Below, piece by piece: positions 43,957-62,722 of a stretch of 64,000 nt of DNA. The notes beneath the pieces are model-generated. The model saw nothing but the letters and a program-made list of their open reading frames with translations, searched no databases and was not told the origin of the DNA. Source of the DNA: Halobium salinum (GTDB lineage: Archaea; Halobacteriota; Halobacteria; Halobacteriales; Haloferacaceae); NCBI RefSeq assembly GCF_026586625.1, contig NZ_JAODIW010000006.1, forward strand, positions 568,927 to 632,926. The letters are read 5' to 3'. A program made the position numbers and the translations under genes. Positions within the stretch are counted from its first letter, which is position 1. Each line of letters starts with the position of its first letter.

Positions 43957-44104
43957 GCAGCGGCACGGAGTTCTGCGGCGCACCCCGATTCACGAGCGAC
44001 GGCCCCACCGGGTACCGTGTCGTCGGCCGGTCCCGCGCCGCCGCGCGGGCCCTGCGCCGTCGGCCGACTCCGTGGTGACGCGCCGTTCCGCCGTCGTTCT
44101 CGTC

Positions 44105-44235
44105 TTCCTGCCGCCGTTTCGTCCTCCGCCGTCGTTCCCTCTTCCTGCCGCCGTTTCGTCCTCCGCCGTCGTTCCCTCTTCCTGCCGCCGTTTCGTCCTC
44201 CGCCGTCGTTCCCTCTTCCTGCCGCCGCCTCGTCC
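44105..44235. repeat. 37-bp tandem repeat, about 3.5 copies
   Basis: The unit begins TTCCTGCCGCCGTTTCGTCC and continues TCCGCCGTCGTTCCCTC. Copies start at 44105, 44142, 44179 and 44216, the last degenerating. The copies are almost identical and lie head to tail with no spacers. The unit length is not a multiple of three, so all reading frames across it are artefacts. It lies in a 390-bp gap between the HalOD1 gene and a membrane-protein gene. Confidence 0.88.
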
Positions 44236-44346
44236 TTCCATTGCCGTTTCGTCTTTCCATCGCTCGTCGGCTCGCCCGACGCCGAGGGTCCGGTCACCGC
44301 CGGCCCGACGTGAGGTATTACTCCCTGCGGAGCCTCATCCGTACTC

Positions 44347-49163: not shown

Positions 49164-51695
49164 ATGTCATCACAGACCTCCGCGCGAAGCCGGCGGGCCG
49201 TGGGCGTGCTAGTCGCGCTCGTCGTGGTCACGGCCGGCTTCGTGCCGTTCGCCCTCGCCTCGTCCCCGACAGACGCCACCGGTGCCACGAGCGGTGCCGA
49301 CGCCGACGAGCGTTCTACCACTCTCGCGGGGGCGGGAGCGGACACGCGTACGGACGGTGGAGCCGCGTCCGACCTCGGCGTCGGCGGGTCGACAGTCCGG
49401 CAGTCGGCCGGGAGCGTCACCAGCGAGGGTGTCGAGACGATGAACCTCTCCGCGGCGCACGAGGCCGGCTACACCGGAGAGGGGACCACGGTGGTCATCA
49501 TCGACGACGGGTTCGACACGTCGAACCCCGAAATCGCGGACCAGGTGACCGCGACGAGGGACTTCACCGGTCACGGTATCGGTCGGGGACAGTCCGGCCT
49601 CCACGGAACGGCGGTCGCCGAGATTCTCGCCGACACCGCCCCGGACGCGAACCTCGTGCTCGTCCGAGCGAACACCGAGACCCAGCTGTACCGCGCGATT
49701 CGGTACGTCGACGGGCAGACGGACGCCGACGTGGTGAGCCTCTCGCGCAACTGGCGCCACGCGGGTGCACTCGACGGGAGCTCGCGGATGGACGAGGCCA
49801 TCTCCGAGAGCGTCGCCGACGGGACGACGTGGTTCGTCTCCGCGGGCAACGCGGGCGACGGAAAACACTGGTCGGGCGAGTGGAGCGACCCCGACGGCGA
49901 CGGCTGGCAGAACTTCGCGGGCGACCGGGAGACCACGGACGTCGTGCTCCCGGCGCCACACGACGACGTGCACTCCGACGTGTCCCTCTCGCTGCAGTGG
50001 GACGCGTGGCCCCGCACGGACGCGGACTACGACCTCTACCTGACCAACACGACGGAGATGGAGTGTACCGACGCCGAGGGCCAGCCGACGTTCTGTGACG
50101 AGAACGTCGTCGCCAGCGGTTCAGTCCGCCAGACGGGCCACCAGGAGCCGTGGGAACTCGTCTCCAGTCACTGGGTGGACGCCTTCGACGCCTCCTCGTA
50201 CGAGACCGGGGAGGGGCCGGTGTTCCACGCCGCCATCCGCGCACACGACGCCCCCTCGGACGCCCAGTTCGACCTGTACGCCGGTGACGGCCACCGGCTC
50301 CGACAGGACGCGACCGCCGAGGGGAGCGTGCTGCTGCCCGCGACGAACCCCGACGTGGTTACGGTCGGGGCGACCACCGCCGACGGGAGCCGCGTCGCCG
50401 ACTACTCCTCGCGCGGGCCGACCGTCGACGGACGGACGAAGCCCGACCTCGTCGCCCCCGCGGGCGTCAGCACCGACTCGGTGGGGCAGTTCACCGGCAC
50501 CTCCGCGGCCGCGCCCCACGCCGCCGGCGTTGCCGCCGTCCTCCTCGAGGCCGACGCCGACCTCTCGCCGACGCAGGTGAAGTCGGTCATGACGGACACG
50601 GCGGCCCCGGTCAGCGGCGGACCGAACGCCGCCGGCGACGGCCTGGTCGACGCGGGCGCGAGCCTCGCCGCGGTCTCCTCGACTGCCGGCAGCGGCGACG
50701 ACCCGACCGCGACGCCGGAACCGACTCCGGAGCCGACGGCGACGCCCGAACCGACCCCGGAACCGACGCCGGAGCCGACGGCGACCCCGGAACCGACGCC
50801 GGAGCCGACGGCGACCCCGGAATCGACGCCGGAGCCGACGGCGACCCCGGAATCGACGCCGGAGCCGACTCCGGAACCGACGGCGACGCCCGAACCGACC
50901 CCGGAACCGACTCCGGAACCGACGGCGACACCGGAGTCCACGCCCGAACCGACGCCGGAGTCCACACCGGAACCGACGGCGACGCCCGAATCGACGCCGG
51001 AGTCCACGCCAGAATCGACACCCGAATCGACGCCGGAGTCCACGCCCGAATCCACCCCAGAATCGACGCCCGAATCCACACCTGAGTCCACGCCCGAGGA
51101 CGCCGGGAGCGCCGGCACAGGCGGCGGTGGCGACGGTGGGAGCAGCGGGGGCGGGTCGGCCGGCCCGGCGGTCGGGCAGGACGGCGGGCTCGGCATCCGT
51201 TCGGTGGAGGTGTCGGGGACGCCGACCGTCGGCACCTCGACGCCCGTGCTCGCGACCGTGTCGAACACGGACGTCGTCGACCACACGCGGACCATCGCGC
51301 TCCGGGTCGACGGGACCGTCGTCGCCGAACGGACGGTGACGCTCGCGAGCGGCGAGGAGGCCACCCTCCGATTCGCTCACAGCTTCGCCGAGGCGGGTGA
51401 CCGACGCCTCGCGCTCGGGGCCCAGGAGCGGACCGTCGCGGTCCAGTCCGGGCAGACCGGCGAGAGCACGGACACGAACGCCGACGGCGAACCGACGGCG
51501 GTCGACGACGGGCAGGCAGTCCAGGGGGCGACCGAGACGGCCGTCGGCACCGGCGGACAGGCCGGAGCCCAAGCCGAGACCGAGCGGGCGTCCGCACAGG
51601 ACCGAACCAGCTCCACGACCGTGCCCGGGTTCTCGGCACTGCTCGCGCTGGTGGCGCTCGTCGTCGGTCTGCTGGCGATGGCCCGACGACGCTGA
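49164..51695 (+). CDS. Secreted subtilisin-like serine protease with PGF-CTERM anchor
   Basis: An 843-residue S8-family protease. A Sec-type signal (RRAVGVLVALVVVTAGFVPF) is followed by the catalytic triad Asp114 (VVIIDDGFD), His148 (GLHGTAVAEI) and Ser447 (GTSAAAPHAAG), with the oxyanion SAGNAG. Residues about 513-647 are a TPEPT/ESTPE repeat stalk encoded by near-tandem DNA. Residues about 670-750 form a CARDB-like beta domain. The C-terminus, PGFSALLALVALVVGLLAMA and RRR, is a PGF-CTERM signal, so an archaeosortase probably cuts it and links the protein to lipid. The Thr-rich stalk is likely glycosylated. Confidence 0.93.
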   Translation: MSSQTSARSRRAVGVLVALVVVTAGFVPFALASSPTDATGATSGADADERSTTLAGAGADTRTDGGAASDLGVGGSTVRQSAGSVTSEGVETMNLSAAHEAGYTGEGTTVVIIDDGFDTSNPEIADQVTATRDFTGHGIGRGQSGLHGTAVAEILADTAPDANLVLVRANTETQLYRAIRYVDGQTDADVVSLSRNWRHAGALDGSSRMDEAISESVADGTTWFVSAGNAGDGKHWSGEWSDPDGDGWQNFAGDRETTDVVLPAPHDDVHSDVSLSLQWDAWPRTDADYDLYLTNTTEMECTDAEGQPTFCDENVVASGSVRQTGHQEPWELVSSHWVDAFDASSYETGEGPVFHAAIRAHDAPSDAQFDLYAGDGHRLRQDATAEGSVLLPATNPDVVTVGATTADGSRVADYSSRGPTVDGRTKPDLVAPAGVSTDSVGQFTGTSAAAPHAAGVAAVLLEADADLSPTQVKSVMTDTAAPVSGGPNAAGDGLVDAGASLAAVSSTAGSGDDPTATPEPTPEPTATPEPTPEPTPEPTATPEPTPEPTATPESTPEPTATPESTPEPTPEPTATPEPTPEPTPEPTATPESTPEPTPESTPEPTATPESTPESTPESTPESTPESTPESTPESTPESTPESTPEDAGSAGTGGGGDGGSSGGGSAGPAVGQDGGLGIRSVEVSGTPTVGTSTPVLATVSNTDVVDHTRTIALRVDGTVVAERTVTLASGEEATLRFAHSFAEAGDRRLALGAQERTVAVQSGQTGESTDTNADGEPTAVDDGQAVQGATETAVGTGGQAGAQAETERASAQDRTSSTTVPGFSALLALVALVVGLLAMARRR
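50700..51104 (+). repeat. Low-complexity coding repeat in the protease stalk
   Basis: About 400 bp built of 12-30 bp words such as CCGGAACCGACGCCGGAG and CCCGAATCGACGCCGGAG, encoding TPEPT then mostly TPES units. The first half is TPEPTATPE and the second half almost pure ESTP, so at least two rounds of repeat growth occurred. Prone to replication slippage. Confidence 0.85.
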
Positions 51696-51976: not shown

Positions 51977-53305
51977 ATGTCAGAGAAGACCCCAGCCACA
52001 GACAGTACCGACTCATCTAACACGTCCTCGCGCCGGACGTTCCTCGGCGTCGCGGCCGCCACCGGTGCCGGCCTGGCTCTCGGCGGCACCGCCGTCGCAC
52101 AGGAGTCCGACTCCGGGACGGCCGCCGCGACGTTCGACGACCAGACGACCGAAGGCTCGACGGTGACCGTCACCTCCGCGACCCTCCCCGAGGGCGGCTA
52201 CGTCGCCATCCACGACGCGTCGCTGCTCGAGGGGAACGTCCTCGGTAGCGTCATCGGCGTCTCCGAGTACTACGAGGCGGGCACCCACGAGGACGTCGAG
52301 GTGTCTCTGTACGAGGGCGTCGAGGGCGCCGAGTTCGAGCAGTCGATGCTCGAGGAAGACCAGCCGCTCATCGCGATGCCCCACCGGGAGACGAACGGCA
52401 ACGAGACTTACGAGTTCGTCGCGAGCGAGGGCGAGAGCGACGGCCCGTACACGGCAGACGGCGAGGCCGTCGTCGACAAGGCGGCGATAACGGTCGAGTC
52501 GATGGAGTCGAAGCCGACCGCCTCGGTCACCTTCGACGACCAGACGACCGGCGGGAAGACGGTCTCGGTCGCCTCGACCAGCCTCTCGGAGGGCGGGTTC
52601 GTCGCCATCCACGACGCGTCGCTGCTCGAGGGGAACGTCCTCGGTAGCGTCATCGGCGTCTCCGAGTACCTCGGCGCCGGCGAACACGAGGACGTGACGG
52701 TGACGCTGTTCGACGTGCCCGGCGGCGACTTCGAGAGTTCGATGCTGGAGGAGGACCAAACGCTCATCGCGATGCCGCACCTCGACACCAACGACAACGA
52801 CACCTACGACTTCCTCACGAGCGAGGGCCAGGCCGACGGTCCGTACACGATGGACGGCCAGGCCGTCGTCGACAAGGGGATGGTCACGGTCGAAGCCGAG
52901 GAGATGCCGACCGCGAAGACCTGCTTCCCCCGCCAGAAGAGCGACGGGACGACGGTCCACCTCCCGTACGCCGACCTCTCGGAGGGCGGGTTCGTCGCCA
53001 TCCACGACGCCTCCCTCCTCGACGGGGAGGTCCTGGAGAGCGTCGTCGGCGTCTCCGAATACCTCGAGGCCGGCCGCACGGAGGACATCGAGGTAACCCT
53101 GTTCGAGGGCGTCCCCGGCGGCGACTTCGACCGGGACAGCCTGGAGGACGGCGAGCAGCTGTACGCCATGCCGCACTTCGACACGAACGAGAACGACACC
53201 TACGACTTCGTCGAGAGCGAGGGCCAGGCCGACGGCCCGTACACGATGGACGGAGAACCGGTGCTCAACCGGAGTACCATCACCGTGACCGACGGGGACG
53301 ACTGA
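51977..53305 (+). CDS. Tat-exported protein with three DUF7282 repeats
   Basis: A 442-residue secreted protein. The twin-arginine signal SSRRTFLGVAAATGAGLALG is at the N-terminus. It is followed by three copies of a beta-rich unit of about 130 residues, at about 49-175, 182-305 and 312-440. Each holds the pattern EGG.VAIHDASLLEG.VLGSV and ends with DGPYT.DG..V. This matches DUF7282, a haloarchaeal surface domain of unknown use. The third repeat has a changed N-terminal strand (CFPRQKSDGTTVHLPYA). A conserved stretch is identical over 69 bases in repeats one and two. Confidence 0.9.
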   Translation: MSEKTPATDSTDSSNTSSRRTFLGVAAATGAGLALGGTAVAQESDSGTAAATFDDQTTEGSTVTVTSATLPEGGYVAIHDASLLEGNVLGSVIGVSEYYEAGTHEDVEVSLYEGVEGAEFEQSMLEEDQPLIAMPHRETNGNETYEFVASEGESDGPYTADGEAVVDKAAITVESMESKPTASVTFDDQTTGGKTVSVASTSLSEGGFVAIHDASLLEGNVLGSVIGVSEYLGAGEHEDVTVTLFDVPGGDFESSMLEEDQTLIAMPHLDTNDNDTYDFLTSEGQADGPYTMDGQAVVDKGMVTVEAEEMPTAKTCFPRQKSDGTTVHLPYADLSEGGFVAIHDASLLDGEVLESVVGVSEYLEAGRTEDIEVTLFEGVPGGDFDRDSLEDGEQLYAMPHFDTNENDTYDFVESEGQADGPYTMDGEPVLNRSTITVTDGDD

Positions 53306-54335: not shown

Positions 54336-54357
54336 CGGTGAAGTGAATCCACTCCCC

Positions 54358-55638
54358 ATGACTGTCGACACGGCCGTGGTGCTCGCCGCGGGCGAGGGGA
54401 AGCGGCTCCGACCGCTGACCGAACACCGTCCGAAGCCGATGCTCCCGGCGGGAACGCGTCCCATCCTCGAGTACGTCCTCGACGCGCTGCTCGAGGCGGG
54501 CGTCTCCGACCTCCACCTCGTCGTCGGCTACGGGCGCGACCGCATCCAGAACCACGTCGGGTCGACCTACCGCGGGCGGCCGGTCACCTACCACGACCAG
54601 CGAAAGCAGTTGGGGAGCGGTCACGCGCTCCTGCAGGCGGCCGACGCCGTCGAGACGGAGTGTCTCGTCGTCAACGGGGACCAGGTCGTGAGCACGGCTA
54701 TCGTCCGCGACGTGGTTGCGGCGCACACCTCCGAGGACGTCGCGACCCTCGCGGTCGTCGAGAGCGACGCCGCACCCGACTACGGCGCGGTCCGCCTCGA
54801 CGGGGACCGCGTCGTCGAACTCCACGAACGCCCCGGTGGTGAGGACCACCACCTCCTCAACGCCGGCGTGTACGCGTTCGACCGCTCGTTCTTCGAGGAG
54901 ATCGAGCGCACGCCGCGCGAGGAGGGGGAGCTCTCGCTCACCCGGACCATCGCCTGGCTCGCCGCCGAGGAGCGGTCGGTCCGGGGGGTCCACACCGACG
55001 GGGTGTGGCGCGACGCCGTCTACCCCTGGGACCTCCTCTCGCTCGCGAGGACGGTACTGCGAAACGACGACATCCTGACGGAGGCGATACCGAACGGCGG
55101 AGGCTCCGTCACGGAGCGCTCCGGTCGCGACGGTCGAGGCCCGCGGGACCGGCGCGAGGAACGGAACGGGCGCGGCCGGCGGCGAGTTCGCGTCTCGCCG
55201 ACGGCGTCGGTCCACGAGGACGCCACGCTCGTCGGTCCGGTCGACGTCGCCGACGACTGTGTCGTCGGGCCGGGAGCCGTCGTCGGCCCCAACGTCGCGC
55301 TGGGCCGGAACACGACGGTCCGAGCGGGCGCGGTCGTCCGGGGCTCCGTCGTGGACGTCGACGCCCGCATCGGCGAGAACGCGACGGTCGTCGACGCCGT
55401 CGTCGGTCAGGGGGTCCACGTCGGCCCCGGCGTCACCCTCCCCGGGGGCGCGGCCGACGTGCGCATCGGCACGACCGTCCACGAGGACTGTCGGCTCGGC
55501 GGGGTGTTGGCCGACCGCGTCCACGTCGGCGGCGGCGCCACCGTACTGCCGGGGGCGCTCGTCGGCCCCGACGCCCGCGTCGACCCCGGCACCGTCGTCA
55601 GAGGACAGGTCGAGGCCCACGGGCGGGTGAGCAACTGA
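54358..55638 (+). CDS. GlmU-like sugar-1-phosphate nucleotidylyltransferase/acetyltransferase
   Basis: A 426-residue bifunctional enzyme. Residues 1-235 are the nucleotidyltransferase domain, with AVVLAAGEGKRLRPLTEHRP, LVVNGDQVV and VWRDAVYPWDLLSLARTVL. After an Arg-rich insertion (about 249-278; RSGRDGRGPRDRREERNG) follow left-handed beta-helix hexapeptide repeats (VGPVDVADDCVVGPGAVVG and on) of the acetyltransferase part. It should produce a UDP-sugar, most likely UDP-GlcNAc. The ATG at 54358 fits the promoter; a GTG upstream at 54343 is possible. The stop overlaps glmS (TGATG). Confidence 0.9.
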   Translation: MTVDTAVVLAAGEGKRLRPLTEHRPKPMLPAGTRPILEYVLDALLEAGVSDLHLVVGYGRDRIQNHVGSTYRGRPVTYHDQRKQLGSGHALLQAADAVETECLVVNGDQVVSTAIVRDVVAAHTSEDVATLAVVESDAAPDYGAVRLDGDRVVELHERPGGEDHHLLNAGVYAFDRSFFEEIERTPREEGELSLTRTIAWLAAEERSVRGVHTDGVWRDAVYPWDLLSLARTVLRNDDILTEAIPNGGGSVTERSGRDGRGPRDRREERNGRGRRRVRVSPTASVHEDATLVGPVDVADDCVVGPGAVVGPNVALGRNTTVRAGAVVRGSVVDVDARIGENATVVDAVVGQGVHVGPGVTLPGGAADVRIGTTVHEDCRLGGVLADRVHVGGGATVLPGALVGPDARVDPGTVVRGQVEAHGRVSN

Positions 55639-57443
55639 TGTGTGGCATCGTCGGCTGCGTCGGTCGGGACGGCGACGCGAAGGAGGTGCTGCTCTCGGGG
55701 CTCTCACAGCTCGAGTACCGCGGCTACGACTCGGCCGGCATCGCCGTCACCGGCGTCGGCGGTCCCCTCGACGTGGCGAAGCGCGAGGGCGAACTGCAGG
55801 CGCTGAAGGACGCCGTCGAGGACCGTTCGTTCCCCGGCGGCACCGGAATCGGCCACACGCGCTGGTCGACACACGGCCCGCCGGCGACGCGCAACGCCCA
55901 CCCGCACACCGATGAGACCGGTCGGGTCGCGGTCGTCCACAACGGCATCATCGAGAACTACGCCGCCCTCCGCGACGAGCTGACGGAGGCGGGCGTCCCG
56001 CTCACGAGCGACACCGACACCGAGGTGGTGCCGCACCTGTTCGCACGCTACCTGACGGAAGGTGACGACCCCGAGGCGGCGTTCAGACGCACCGTGTCCC
56101 GCCTGGAGGGGAGTTACGCCATCGCGGCCGTCGTCGCGGGCGAGGACGCCGTGTTCGCCGCGAGGCGTCACTCCCCGCTCGTGCTCGGCGTCGGCGCCGA
56201 CGAGAACTACCTCGCGAGCGACGTGACCGCGCTGGTCGAACACACTCGCGAGGTCGTCTACATCGAGGACGACCAGTTCGCCGTGCTCCGGCCCTCGGGC
56301 TGGCGGGTCACCGACGCGACCGGCGAGCGCGTCGACCCCGAGGTCCGAACCGTCGACTGGACCGCGGAGCAGACCGGCAAGAGCGGCTACGACCACTACA
56401 TGCTGAAGGAGATCAACGAACAGCCGCTGTCGCTCAGACAGTGCACTCGCGGGAGGGTGGACGAGTTGGCGGGCACGGTCGGCGACGAGGGACTCGACGG
56501 TCTCGACAGACCCGACCGCGTGCAGTTCGTCGCCTGTGGCACGTCGTACCACGCGGCGCTGTACGGCGCGTCGCTGCTCAGGGCGGCCGGCGTGCAGGCC
56601 GACGCCTACCTCGCAAGCGAGTACGCGATGACCCCCTGTCCCGTCACGTCGGAGACGCTCGTCGTCGGCGTCACCCAGAGCGGGGAGACCGCGGACACCC
56701 TCTCCGCGCTCCGCATCGCCGACGACCGCGGCGCGCGGACGCTCGCGATGACGAACGTCGTCGGCTCCTCGGCCGCCCGCGAGTGCGACCGGACGTTCCT
56801 CCTGCGGGCCGGCCCCGAAATCGGCGTCGCCGCCACCAAGACGTTCTCGACCCAACTGGTCGGCCTCGCGGTGCTCGCCGAGCATCTCGCGGACGCGGAG
56901 GGGGCCGACCCCGACCTCGTCACCGCGCTTCGGGACCTGCCGGACCTCGCCCAGCAGGTGTTGGACGAGTCCCGGGCCGCCGAGGTAGCGGAGGAGTTCG
57001 ACGGGATGGACGCCTACTTCTTCATCGGGCGGGGCCTCCACTACCCCGTCGCCCTCGAAGGGGCGCTGAAGTTCAAGGAGATAACCTACGAGCACGCGGA
57101 AGGGTTCGCAGCCGGCGAACTCAAACACGGGCCGCTCGCGCTCGTCACCGGCCGGACGCCGGTGTTCGCGGTCGTCGCCGGCGACGGCGCGCTGGCGCGT
57201 AAGACCCTCGCGAACGTCAAGGAGGTGGAGGCTCGGGACGCGCCGGTCGTCGTCGTCTCCGACGGGAGTCAGGAGGTCGCCGGCTACGCCGACCGCGTCC
57301 TCGAGATTCCCGAGAGCCACCCGGCGACGGTGCCCATCCTCGCGAACCTCCAGTTCCAGCTACTGGCCTACCACGTCGCCGACCGACTCGGACGACCCAT
57401 CGACAAGCCGCGGAACCTCGCGAAGAGCGTCACCGTGGAGTGA
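55638..57443 (+). CDS. glmS: Glutamine--fructose-6-phosphate aminotransferase (isomerizing)
   Basis: A 601-residue enzyme that makes glucosamine-6-phosphate from fructose-6-phosphate and glutamine. The glutaminase domain starts MCGIVGCVGRDGDAK; Cys2 becomes the N-terminal nucleophile. The two SIS domains follow from about 285 and 455 (FVACGTSYHAALYGASLLR; GVTQSGETADTLSAL; FIGRGLHYPVALEGALKFKE; the end RPIDKPRNLAKSVTVE). The ATG overlaps the GlmU-like stop, so the two enzymes are made together. Pgi in this window provides fructose-6-phosphate. Confidence 0.96.
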   Translation: MCGIVGCVGRDGDAKEVLLSGLSQLEYRGYDSAGIAVTGVGGPLDVAKREGELQALKDAVEDRSFPGGTGIGHTRWSTHGPPATRNAHPHTDETGRVAVVHNGIIENYAALRDELTEAGVPLTSDTDTEVVPHLFARYLTEGDDPEAAFRRTVSRLEGSYAIAAVVAGEDAVFAARRHSPLVLGVGADENYLASDVTALVEHTREVVYIEDDQFAVLRPSGWRVTDATGERVDPEVRTVDWTAEQTGKSGYDHYMLKEINEQPLSLRQCTRGRVDELAGTVGDEGLDGLDRPDRVQFVACGTSYHAALYGASLLRAAGVQADAYLASEYAMTPCPVTSETLVVGVTQSGETADTLSALRIADDRGARTLAMTNVVGSSAARECDRTFLLRAGPEIGVAATKTFSTQLVGLAVLAEHLADAEGADPDLVTALRDLPDLAQQVLDESRAAEVAEEFDGMDAYFFIGRGLHYPVALEGALKFKEITYEHAEGFAAGELKHGPLALVTGRTPVFAVVAGDGALARKTLANVKEVEARDAPVVVVSDGSQEVAGYADRVLEIPESHPATVPILANLQFQLLAYHVADRLGRPIDKPRNLAKSVTVE

Positions 57444-60156: not shown

Positions 60157-60357
60157 TCACCCCGTCGGACTCTCGACGCGCGTCCTGCCCCCGGCCTGCG
60201 CGGCCTGGTGGTACACCGCGTCGAAGTCGTATTTCTCGATACCGAGGTCGCAGTACGGCTCGAAACCGTCGAGCACGACGTCGTGACCGTCACGGGCGAA
60301 CGTCGCCGCGACGTAGCCGCCGATAAAACCCGCACCGCCGGTGACGAGAACTCGCAT
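60157..60357 (-). pseudogene. Truncated NAD-dependent sugar epimerase
   Basis: The 66 codons start like a UDP-glucose-4-epimerase/dehydratase: MRVLVTGGAGFIGGYVAATF (GxxGxxG NAD site), then DGHDVVLDGFEPYCDLGI. The sequence jumps directly to FDAVYHQAAQAGGRTRVESP, which in intact enzymes comes about 35-45 residues later, and stops soon after. So there is an internal deletion and loss of the C-terminal 230 or so residues, including the catalytic Tyr and Lys. It is a dead gene in a sugar-nucleotide neighbourhood. Confidence 0.85.
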
Positions 60358-60422: not shown

Positions 60423-61154
60423 CTACGCGCTCGACGCGGGTGTCTCCTCCCGGAGGCGCTCCTCGGCCTCGTCGCGGTCCTCGGGGTAGCCGATGTCCAT
60501 CCGCCAGCCGTCGAGGCGGATGGCGTCGATGGTCCGACCGCTCTCGATGAGCAGGTCGATGGCCTCGCTAATCTCGTACTCGCCCCGGTTCGAGGGCTGG
60601 ACGAGGTGACAGGCGTGGAAGATAGCGGGCGTGAAGGTGTAGAATCCGGTCATCACGAGGTTCGACGGCGGGTCCTCCGGTTTCTCGATGACTCCGGTTA
60701 TCTCTCCGTAGTTGTTGGTATCACAGACGCCGTAACGGCCGGCTTCCTCGTAGGGAACCTCCTCGACGAGGAACGCCGCGTCCGCGCGGTCCTCCCGCTG
60801 GCGCCGCACCACGTCGCCGAGGTTCGCCGAGAAGACGTTGTCGCCGAGCATCAGCATGAAGTCGTCGTCGACGTGGTCTTCGACGGTGAGCAGCGCGTGT
60901 GCGAGCCCCTTCTGGTCGCGCTGGTGAGCGTACGTGATGGGGACACCCTCGAACTCGTCGCCGTAGTGCTCGATGATGTGCTCTTTCAAGTAGCCGACGA
61001 CGACGACGAACTCGTCGGCGCCGAGTTCGGCGAGCTGTTCGAAGCAGTGGGTGAGGATGGGCTGTCCGTCGACTTCGACCAGCCCCTTCGGTTTCTCCTC
61101 GGTGAGCGGTCGGAGTCGGGTCCCTTCCCCGGCGGCCAGGACGACGGCTTGCAT
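60423..61154 (-). CDS. aglF: Glucose-1-phosphate nucleotidyltransferase, AglF-like
   Basis: A 243-residue sugar-nucleotide synthase. The substrate loop is VVLAAGEGTRLRPLTEEKPK; other motifs are FMLMLGDNVFSANLGDVVRR, FLVEEVPYEEAGRYGVCDT, GVIEKPEDPPSNLVMTGFYTF and the end DGWRMDIGYPEDRDEAEERL. It resembles AglF of Haloferax, which makes UDP-glucose for S-layer N-glycosylation. The actual sugar (UDP-glucose or dTDP-glucose) cannot be told. A GACTTATCG box at 61167-61175 lies about 17-25 bp before the ATG. It is near the dead epimerase. Confidence 0.88.
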   Translation of the reverse strand: MQAVVLAAGEGTRLRPLTEEKPKGLVEVDGQPILTHCFEQLAELGADEFVVVVGYLKEHIIEHYGDEFEGVPITYAHQRDQKGLAHALLTVEDHVDDDFMLMLGDNVFSANLGDVVRRQREDRADAAFLVEEVPYEEAGRYGVCDTNNYGEITGVIEKPEDPPSNLVMTGFYTFTPAIFHACHLVQPSNRGEYEISEAIDLLIESGRTIDAIRLDGWRMDIGYPEDRDEAEERLREETPASSA

Positions 61155-61450: not shown

Positions 61451-62473
61451 CTAAAAGTCCGAGGGTGCGTACTTCCGCCCCTCGATCCAGATGGCGACGT
61501 CTGGGTCGCCCGAGACGACGGTGAACGAGGTCATGTCGCCCTCGAGGGTGTAGTTGTCGGACATGTACTCGACGCTCCCCTCGGCCCGTCCGCTGGAGAC
61601 GCTGTCGTCGCTCTCGACGTTGTCGGCGGGAGTGACCGCTCCTTCGGCCGTGAACTCGTACTCGGTCGGGTTCCCCGTCCCGACAACGGACATCTCCCGC
61701 TCCGGGAGCTCGCCGGACGGGTCGGAGGGGAAGTCCGAGGGTGCGTACTTCCGGCCTTCGATCCAGATGTCGACGTCCGGGTCGCCGGCGACGACGGTGA
61801 ACGAGGTCATGTCCCCTTCGAACGTGTAGTTGTCGGACATGTACTCGACGTTCCCTTTCGCGCGTTCGCTGGTGACGCTGTCGTCGTCTTCGACGTTGTC
61901 GCCCGAGGTGATTCGGCCCTCCGCAGTGAACTCGTACGCCGACCAGTTGCCGCTCCCGACGACGGACATCCGTCGCTCCGGGAGGTCGCTCGCGGTGTCG
62001 GACGGGAAGTCCGAGGGCGCGTACTTCTCGCCCTGAATCCAGATGTCGACGTCTGGGTCGCCGGCGACGACGGTGAACGAGGTCATCTCTCCCTCGAAGG
62101 AGTAGTTGTCGGACATGTACTCAACGGTTCCCGTCGCTCGGCTGTCGGAGCTGCTATCGTCGGCTTCGACGTTGTCGCCAGGGGTGATGCTGCCGGAGGT
62201 CGTGAACTCGTACGCCGTCCAGTTACCGCTCCCGACGACGGACATCCCCTTCTCGGTCGGGTCGCGACCGGAACCGTCGTCGCTTCCGGAGTCGTCGTCT
62301 CCCGACCCCCCGTCGCCCGGGTACGTCCCCTCGCCGAACCCGCCCGCACCGAACGCCGGGCTGTCCGGACTCGCCGGTGTCGCGGGCTCGGCGACGACCG
62401 CCGCTCCCGCCGCCGCAACTGCCATACTCTTGAGAACGCTTCGCCGCCCGATCGGAGTTCGCTCGCGTGCCAT
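61451..62473 (-). CDS. Tat-exported protein of three 92-residue repeats
   Basis: A 340-residue secreted protein with Tat motif IGRRSVLKSMAVAAAGAAVV. Residues 31-75 are a Gly/Asp/Ser linker. Then a unit repeats three times with an exact 92-residue period, starting at Met77, Met169 and Met261. Each unit has MSVVG.GN...YEFT, NVE.DDS, VEYMSDNY..EG.MTSFTVV and GDPDV.IWI.G..YAPSDF. The protein ends exactly where the third unit ends. Asn-sequons (NWT, NYT, NYS) are conserved. Related beta domains occur at the ends of other haloarchaeal surface proteins, but the whole architecture is new to me. Function unknown. Confidence 0.85.
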   Translation of the reverse strand: MARERTPIGRRSVLKSMAVAAAGAAVVAEPATPASPDSPAFGAGGFGEGTYPGDGGSGDDDSGSDDGSGRDPTEKGMSVVGSGNWTAYEFTTSGSITPGDNVEADDSSSDSRATGTVEYMSDNYSFEGEMTSFTVVAGDPDVDIWIQGEKYAPSDFPSDTASDLPERRMSVVGSGNWSAYEFTAEGRITSGDNVEDDDSVTSERAKGNVEYMSDNYTFEGDMTSFTVVAGDPDVDIWIEGRKYAPSDFPSDPSGELPEREMSVVGTGNPTEYEFTAEGAVTPADNVESDDSVSSGRAEGSVEYMSDNYTLEGDMTSFTVVSGDPDVAIWIEGRKYAPSDF

Positions 62474-62722
62474 CGACAGACCGACTAATCACGATTCATA
62501 AATATCTTCCTACAGAGAGTATAATATCTCAATCACTTTAATTATTTCTTGTATATATTTCTATATTTTAATAGAAGTCGTCGAGGGCCGGCCGGTCACC
62601 GGTCACACGCGTCGCGCCCGTCGCGCCGATGCTCGCTGTGCTCGCCGTACTCGCCGACCTGCCCCGAGAGGCAGTCCCCTCACAACCCCCACACCGGTCC
62701 CCGTGACCCGCGACCGAAGTGT
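62474..62722. other. AT-rich intergenic island
   Basis: From 62496 to 62575 the sequence is mostly A and T (for example TATAATATCTCAATCACTTT), unlike anything else in the window. It lies upstream of the minus-strand repeat protein and probably has its promoter. No gene seen. Confidence 0.55.

Follow-up and report, generated by a model that had tools for sequence, protein, structure and literature searches.

What does an exported protein do when it consists, behind its signal, of a linker and the same small domain three times over? The window, by which I mean the whole stretch of 64,000 nucleotides from Halobium salinum (contig NZ_JAODIW010000006.1) analysed here, carries the gene for such a protein at 61451-62473. 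A preliminary description, made from the sequence, had taken the product for a secreted repeat protein with conserved glycosylation sites and a copy number that might change between strains. The object of interest, however, is the family of modules to which the repeat unit belongs, not the repeat count or the sequons.

The protein and its three units

The gene lies on the minus strand, with its ATG at 62473 and its stop codon at 61451-61453, and is laid out as follows.

62498..62505, minus strand: TATA-like box (ATATTTAT), ending 25 nt before the ATG
61451..62473, minus strand: open reading frame of 340 aa, comprising a Tat-type signal, an Asp/Gly/Ser-rich linker and three beta modules
62375..62473, minus strand: predicted twin-arginine signal region, residues 1-33, containing RRSVLKSMAVAAAGAAVVAEPATPA
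62246..62374, minus strand: linker, residues 34-76, with a GAGGFGEGTY motif and an acidic D/G/S stretch
62006..62245, minus strand: module 1, residues 77-156
61970..62005, minus strand: 12-residue linker following module 1
61730..61969, minus strand: module 2, residues 169-248, modelled at pLDDT 94.8
61694..61729, minus strand: 12-residue linker following module 2
61454..61693, minus strand: module 3, residues 261-340, ending on the last residue of the protein

The position of the TATA-like box would be consistent with a nearly leaderless archaeal transcript. Residues 1-33 combine the twin-arginine motif RRSVLKS with a hydrophobic stretch, from which secretion through the Tat pathway is predicted, in keeping with the export proposed at the outset; the Pfam TAT_signal profile matches at E = 0.0023, below that family's cut-off. 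The protein contains no cysteine, hence no lipobox cysteine, and its acidity (pI 4.05) is what one expects of a haloarchaeon. It is undescribed and probably extracellular, as was first supposed. Glycine/aromatic motifs resembling GxG(F/Y)GxG(G/T)Y recur in several exported module proteins, as GFGYGG, GYGGGGYG and GAGGFGEGTY (from L093, L100 and residues 41-51 of the window protein).

The exact period reported for the repeat is borne out: Tandem Repeats Finder gives a 276-nt unit in 2.9 copies with 82% matches (score 1042, far above chance), ungapped DNA copies begin at exact 276-nt intervals, and the units start at Met77, Met169 and Met261. The first two units are each 92 residues long, but the third has only 80 and lacks the 12-residue linker, so that the claim of three equal lengths holds for two; likewise, the protein does end where the folded module ends, although this is 12 residues short of a complete unit. 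Compared over their first 80 residues, the units agree at 80%, 74% and 80% of positions as protein and at 83%, 79% and 83% as DNA. The similarity of the DNA is thus as described, but there is no sign of recent duplication: dS between units is 0.45-0.61 and dN/dS 0.18-0.36, values that indicate old duplications under purifying selection and not a recent expansion. The units appear to be old paralogues, and expansion of the repeat between strains is not indicated by these rates.

The sequons fare worse. The protein has five (N84, N123, N176, N215 and N307), but the first site of unit 3 reads N-P-T and is not a sequon. Across 89 modules examined (86 after removal of a duplicated plasmid/genome protein), the N47 type is limited to the three window units and the N8 type occurs in five. 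Judged by these counts, the sequons do not define the unit and are not conserved across the module family.

A module family of the Halobacteriales

A search of the window's own genome with one unit returned 14 copies in five exported proteins: three in the window protein, two in an AstE/AspA-like protein, and five, two and two in beta-helix proteins. A profile built from these copies matched 239 of 392 sampled genomes and 69 of 95 genera of Halobacteriales, with no module outside Halobacteriales in the genomes sampled; a broader profile (A6) matched 22 of 197 genomes in the phylum, every one from Halobacteriales. The three window units match the module profile at 128-129 bits and carry its characteristic residues (Y12, D30, G39, V41, D46, Y/F48, F/Y50, G52 and G72), except that unit 3 has L at position 50. 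A tight-alignment profile, scanned against genome contigs, added one further relative, from Halomarina (L106). The 340-aa protein belongs, as a stand-alone form, to a haloarchaeal module family that is widespread but has no name. The module is carried on 21 haloarchaeal plasmids. A viral origin was rejected, as neither IMG/VR contigs nor phage records contained relatives.

Sequence searches of Pfam, NCBIfam and the PDB found no family for the module, and a full-text search of open-access papers found no description of it, an absence there that is no proof of novelty. The idea of an undescribed surface or matrix protein remains plausible, with no match to a curated family or solved structure, but its repeat unit is widespread and far from unique to it. 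Sub-threshold Pfam hits to Zn_ribbon_PADR1, arenavirus cap-snatching and gp41 profiles, each over a short stretch of the window protein, were dismissed as profile noise.

The order also has small proteins, with several matches per genome, that carry one divergent module and show no clear signal peptide (LVTIVGRGVPSNYEITVDG...). Members of this f7 family are listed below; they may possibly represent an intracellular or ancestral form of the module.

L113, 1687-2010: f7 member
L114, 1919-2239: f7 member
L115, 1961-2380: f7 member
L118, 1753-2460: f7 member

Hosts of the module

Among 48 module-bearing ORFs examined, arrays range from one to six copies. A simple pattern finds a twin-arginine motif in about 40 of the 48 (at least two of them doubtful), and none of the 48 has a lipobox, a PGF motif or a C-terminal transmembrane segment. 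The module usually forms a C-terminal tail on exported enzymes, in many hosts with nothing after the array, and acidic D/S/G linkers separate tandem copies. Host domains recognised by Pfam include right-handed beta-helix, AstE/AspA deacylase, GH26 and GINT1_N with H-type lectin, and further thioredoxin_4, PKD/CARDB, and BNR and PQQ propellers; going by these assignments, most of the hosts' other domains have carbohydrate as their substrate or ligand.

Relatives of one beta-helix core fall into long ORFs (560-680 aa), of which at least two (G036 and G051) bear the module right behind the core, and short ORFs (370-420 aa) that are, judged by length, too short for core plus array, which suggests that the module is an optional accessory. 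Stand-alone proteins exist elsewhere too: one of 187 aa with one module, others of 223-238 aa with two, and another two-module protein of about 260 aa after a likely start within a 363-aa frame. The window protein is the three-module version of this form. None of the relatives found is characterised, and no match in the databases searched joins a known function to the same architecture.

Two further observations concern individual hosts. Downstream of PKD/CARDB domains, L092 (G018 contig 68) has two overlapping frames with nearly identical modules, apparently an array broken by a frameshift, whether natural or from assembly. Two AstE/AspA-like exported proteins (the C-terminus of L038, and L085) end in repeats after or around the modules that resemble the H-type lectin domain, matched in L085 as PF09458.

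In a tree of 86 modules, built from few columns with rough bootstraps and unsure in its deep forks, the three window units group together (100/96), and a larger clade (98/90) takes in 13 of this genome's 14 units, drawn from all five proteins. That one genome's modules group together across five proteins indicates that they spread among unrelated exported proteins within this lineage. Trp69 and Trp/Tyr43 are each present in 13 of the 14 units and are absent or rare in other lineages; the shared residues and the clade would fit a ligand set by the organism and not by the attached enzyme. Such clustering is not general, as two G332 proteins carry different subfamilies. Replacement of modules on an unchanged AspA-like enzyme was considered and rejected: neither its core nor its modules exceed about 37% identity to those of the other AspA proteins, so that only exchange between proteins inside this lineage is indicated.

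Gene neighbourhood

Three genes of note lie near the window gene.

60423..61154, minus strand: sugar-1-phosphate nucleotidyltransferase (PF00483, E = 9e-44), 296 nt downstream on the same strand
54343..55638, plus strand: GlmU-like nucleotidyltransferase with hexapeptide C-terminus (PF00483, PF00132)
55005..57443, plus strand: GlmS-like amidotransferase/SIS protein, with matched domains from about 55840 and a 5' part that overlaps the preceding gene

The GlmU- and GlmS-like genes are 4-7 kb from the window gene. On plasmids, polysaccharide-biosynthesis genes (glycosyltransferase, flippase/LPS-biosynthesis, nucleotide-sugar dehydrogenase, glmS/glmM or polysaccharide deacetylase) lie within 6 kb of 11 of 12 module loci as against 4 of 12 control regions taken half a plasmid away on the same plasmids, controls that themselves contain parts of polysaccharide clusters (one-sided Fisher p = 0.005). 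Four additional plasmid loci, with 4-kb flanks, all qualify, which brings the count to 15 of 16. The test covers plasmid-borne and mostly large beta-helix-type proteins, gene classes were assigned by hand from product names, and some of the loci share synteny and so are not independent. A polysaccharide-cluster context of module genes is thus supported statistically, in a small sample.

Several other features of the window deserve mention. A second three-unit repeat protein is encoded at 51977-53305 (plus strand), with three DUF7282 domains (PF23951, E = 3e-110) and a 396-bp DNA period in 2.7 copies. A subtilase (PF00082) at 49164-51695 (plus strand) contains a long Pro/Thr/Glu-rich low-complexity repeat, encoded at about 50700-51097, and a 37-bp tandem repeat in four copies with 96% matches lies at 44087-44236. 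At 60157-60357 (minus strand) the first 28 residues of a 66-aa ORF match the NAD-dependent sugar epimerase family PF01370 and a stop follows, apparently the remnant of a truncated epimerase gene.

Fold of the module

The structure prediction that had been suggested was run with AlphaFold2 on unit 2, from an alignment of five related units (those of the window and of L106 only), and gave a confident beta fold of eight strands and a short C-terminal helix (mean pLDDT 94.8, pTM 0.84). A full-length single-sequence model was poor (pLDDT 43) and was left out of the analysis. The conserved residues Y12, F14, V16, G39, V41, D46, Y48, F50 and G52 alternate along the strands and, judged from their strand positions in the model, probably form the core of the module. 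Foldseek comparison of the model with the PDB returned nothing significant (best E = 0.45), with CBM2-type cellulose- and chitin-binding domains recurring among the weak, non-significant matches, and comparison with viral structure models returned nothing significant either.

What the module may do

The module is apparently optional, tandem and exported, sits on mostly carbohydrate-acting enzymes and beside polysaccharide genes, and comes without an anchor; together these features argue that it works like a carbohydrate-binding or surface-targeting module. It would bind the producer's own extracellular glycan, be it an exopolysaccharide or a cell-surface polysaccharide. Such binding would keep exported proteins that have no lipid, membrane or sortase anchor at the cell or in the matrix, and the stand-alone three-module protein may act as a multivalent glycan binder or matrix cross-linker. 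I put the chances as about even that the window protein, assembled from an undescribed accessory module, is not an enzyme and binds surface or exopolysaccharide glycan of its own cell in a multivalent way, the ligand being one that I infer. Against glycan binding, some hosts are not carbohydrate-related (those with the thioredoxin fold and the PQQ and BNR propellers), no CBM or lectin profile matches the module, and its closest PDB folds are non-significant. A bolder version, tentative and less likely than not as a whole, would see in the module a new family of glycan-binding domains that is found in Halobacteriales alone and has a beta fold without counterpart in the PDB. It would direct Tat-exported proteins to the exopolysaccharide of their own lineage, co-evolve with the polymer in each lineage and spread between unrelated exported proteins, and the window protein would be a free multivalent cross-linker of this polymer.

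Could the module instead be a structural spacer like PKD, FN3 or Ig-like domains, which holds catalytic heads off the cell and has no specific ligand, so that the triple protein would be an inert stalk or a degenerate enzyme tail? The C-terminal tandem arrays of one to six copies with their acidic linkers look the part, PKD or CARDB domains stand beside some arrays, and surface positions of the module are mostly variable. However, a Tat signal followed by modules leaves nothing to space in the stand-alone proteins, many hosts have nothing behind their C-terminal array, and the lineage-specific Trp/Tyr residues suggest a ligand; I find this explanation rather doubtful. Protein-protein docking, in which the module would bind an envelope protein such as the S-layer glycoprotein, or itself, and so assemble exported enzymes, would account for enzyme-linked and stand-alone forms alike and for a module common to many exported proteins that lack other anchors. 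It seems unlikely, however, as no partner domain is known, the polysaccharide-cluster context points to glycans, and Foldseek found nothing significantly similar to the module, cohesins and other docking domains included. That the protein is a novel N-glycosylated structural component of surface or matrix with a copy number that varies between strains, as originally proposed, is highly improbable: five sequons, predicted export and an STT3/AglB-type oligosaccharyltransferase encoded in the Halobium salinum genome would suit it, but the family as a whole does not keep the sequons, and even this protein has lost one of them, the units are old by their dS, and the same module doubles as an enzyme tail.

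About 60% of the Halobacteriales genomes sampled have the module, often more than once, yet it has no curated family entry, which leaves many exported haloarchaeal proteins labelled 'hypothetical' and their tail unexplained. If it does target glycan or envelope, this would explain what holds haloarchaeal enzymes at the cell after Tat export when they have neither a lipid nor a sortase anchor. The window protein presents the module with no enzyme attached and is thereby well suited as a reagent in the search for the ligand.

Comparison with known systems

Papers on haloarchaeal polysaccharide degradation name CBM, PKD, FN3, dockerin and discoidin as accessory domains (PMC10963439, PMC13260240, PMC12343721). 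Like the CBM families of CAZy, the module is small, beta, accessory, tandem and apparently optional, occurs with several enzyme types and is joined by acidic, Ser- and Gly-containing linkers. Unlike them, it has no sequence match or significant fold match, and I infer its ligand. Attachment as an accessory to carbohydrate-active enzymes (GH26 and beta-helix hosts) is true of the module family but not of the window protein. With no CBM profile among its Pfam and NCBIfam matches and no CBM fold match, the module cannot be filed as a CBM.

The spacer domains PKD, FN3 and Ig-like likewise recur in exported proteins as beta domains of comparable size, but the module matches none of their profiles; as regards an immunoglobulin-like fold, Foldseek gave no significant hit for the confident model. 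A secreted protease-precursor antagonism system was rejected as a parallel for the module because it depends on alpha-helical motifs. RodZ_C (PF13464), which in bacteria forms the end of a cytoskeletal membrane protein that lies outside the cytoplasm, has weak profile similarity over the last strands of the module. One six-module relative (L083) gives a significant-looking match as a whole protein (residues 665-709, E = 2.9e-11), but of 24 modules scanned singly only two reach an E of 0.1 or better (0.0083 for the stronger), most haloarchaeal modules give no match and neither does the window protein, so membership in this family was rejected.

The closest comparison is with other exported module proteins of Halobacteriales, such as Haloferax mediterranei WP_004060911.1 and those of Halomarina, Halobaculum and Haloterrigena, which are uncharacterised and annotated as 'hypothetical' or 'right-handed parallel beta-helix repeat-containing'. 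They share with the window protein the tandem module of about 80 aa, the Tat signal and the lack of an anchor, but whereas they place a beta-helix or enzyme domain at the N-terminus, the window protein is made of modules only.
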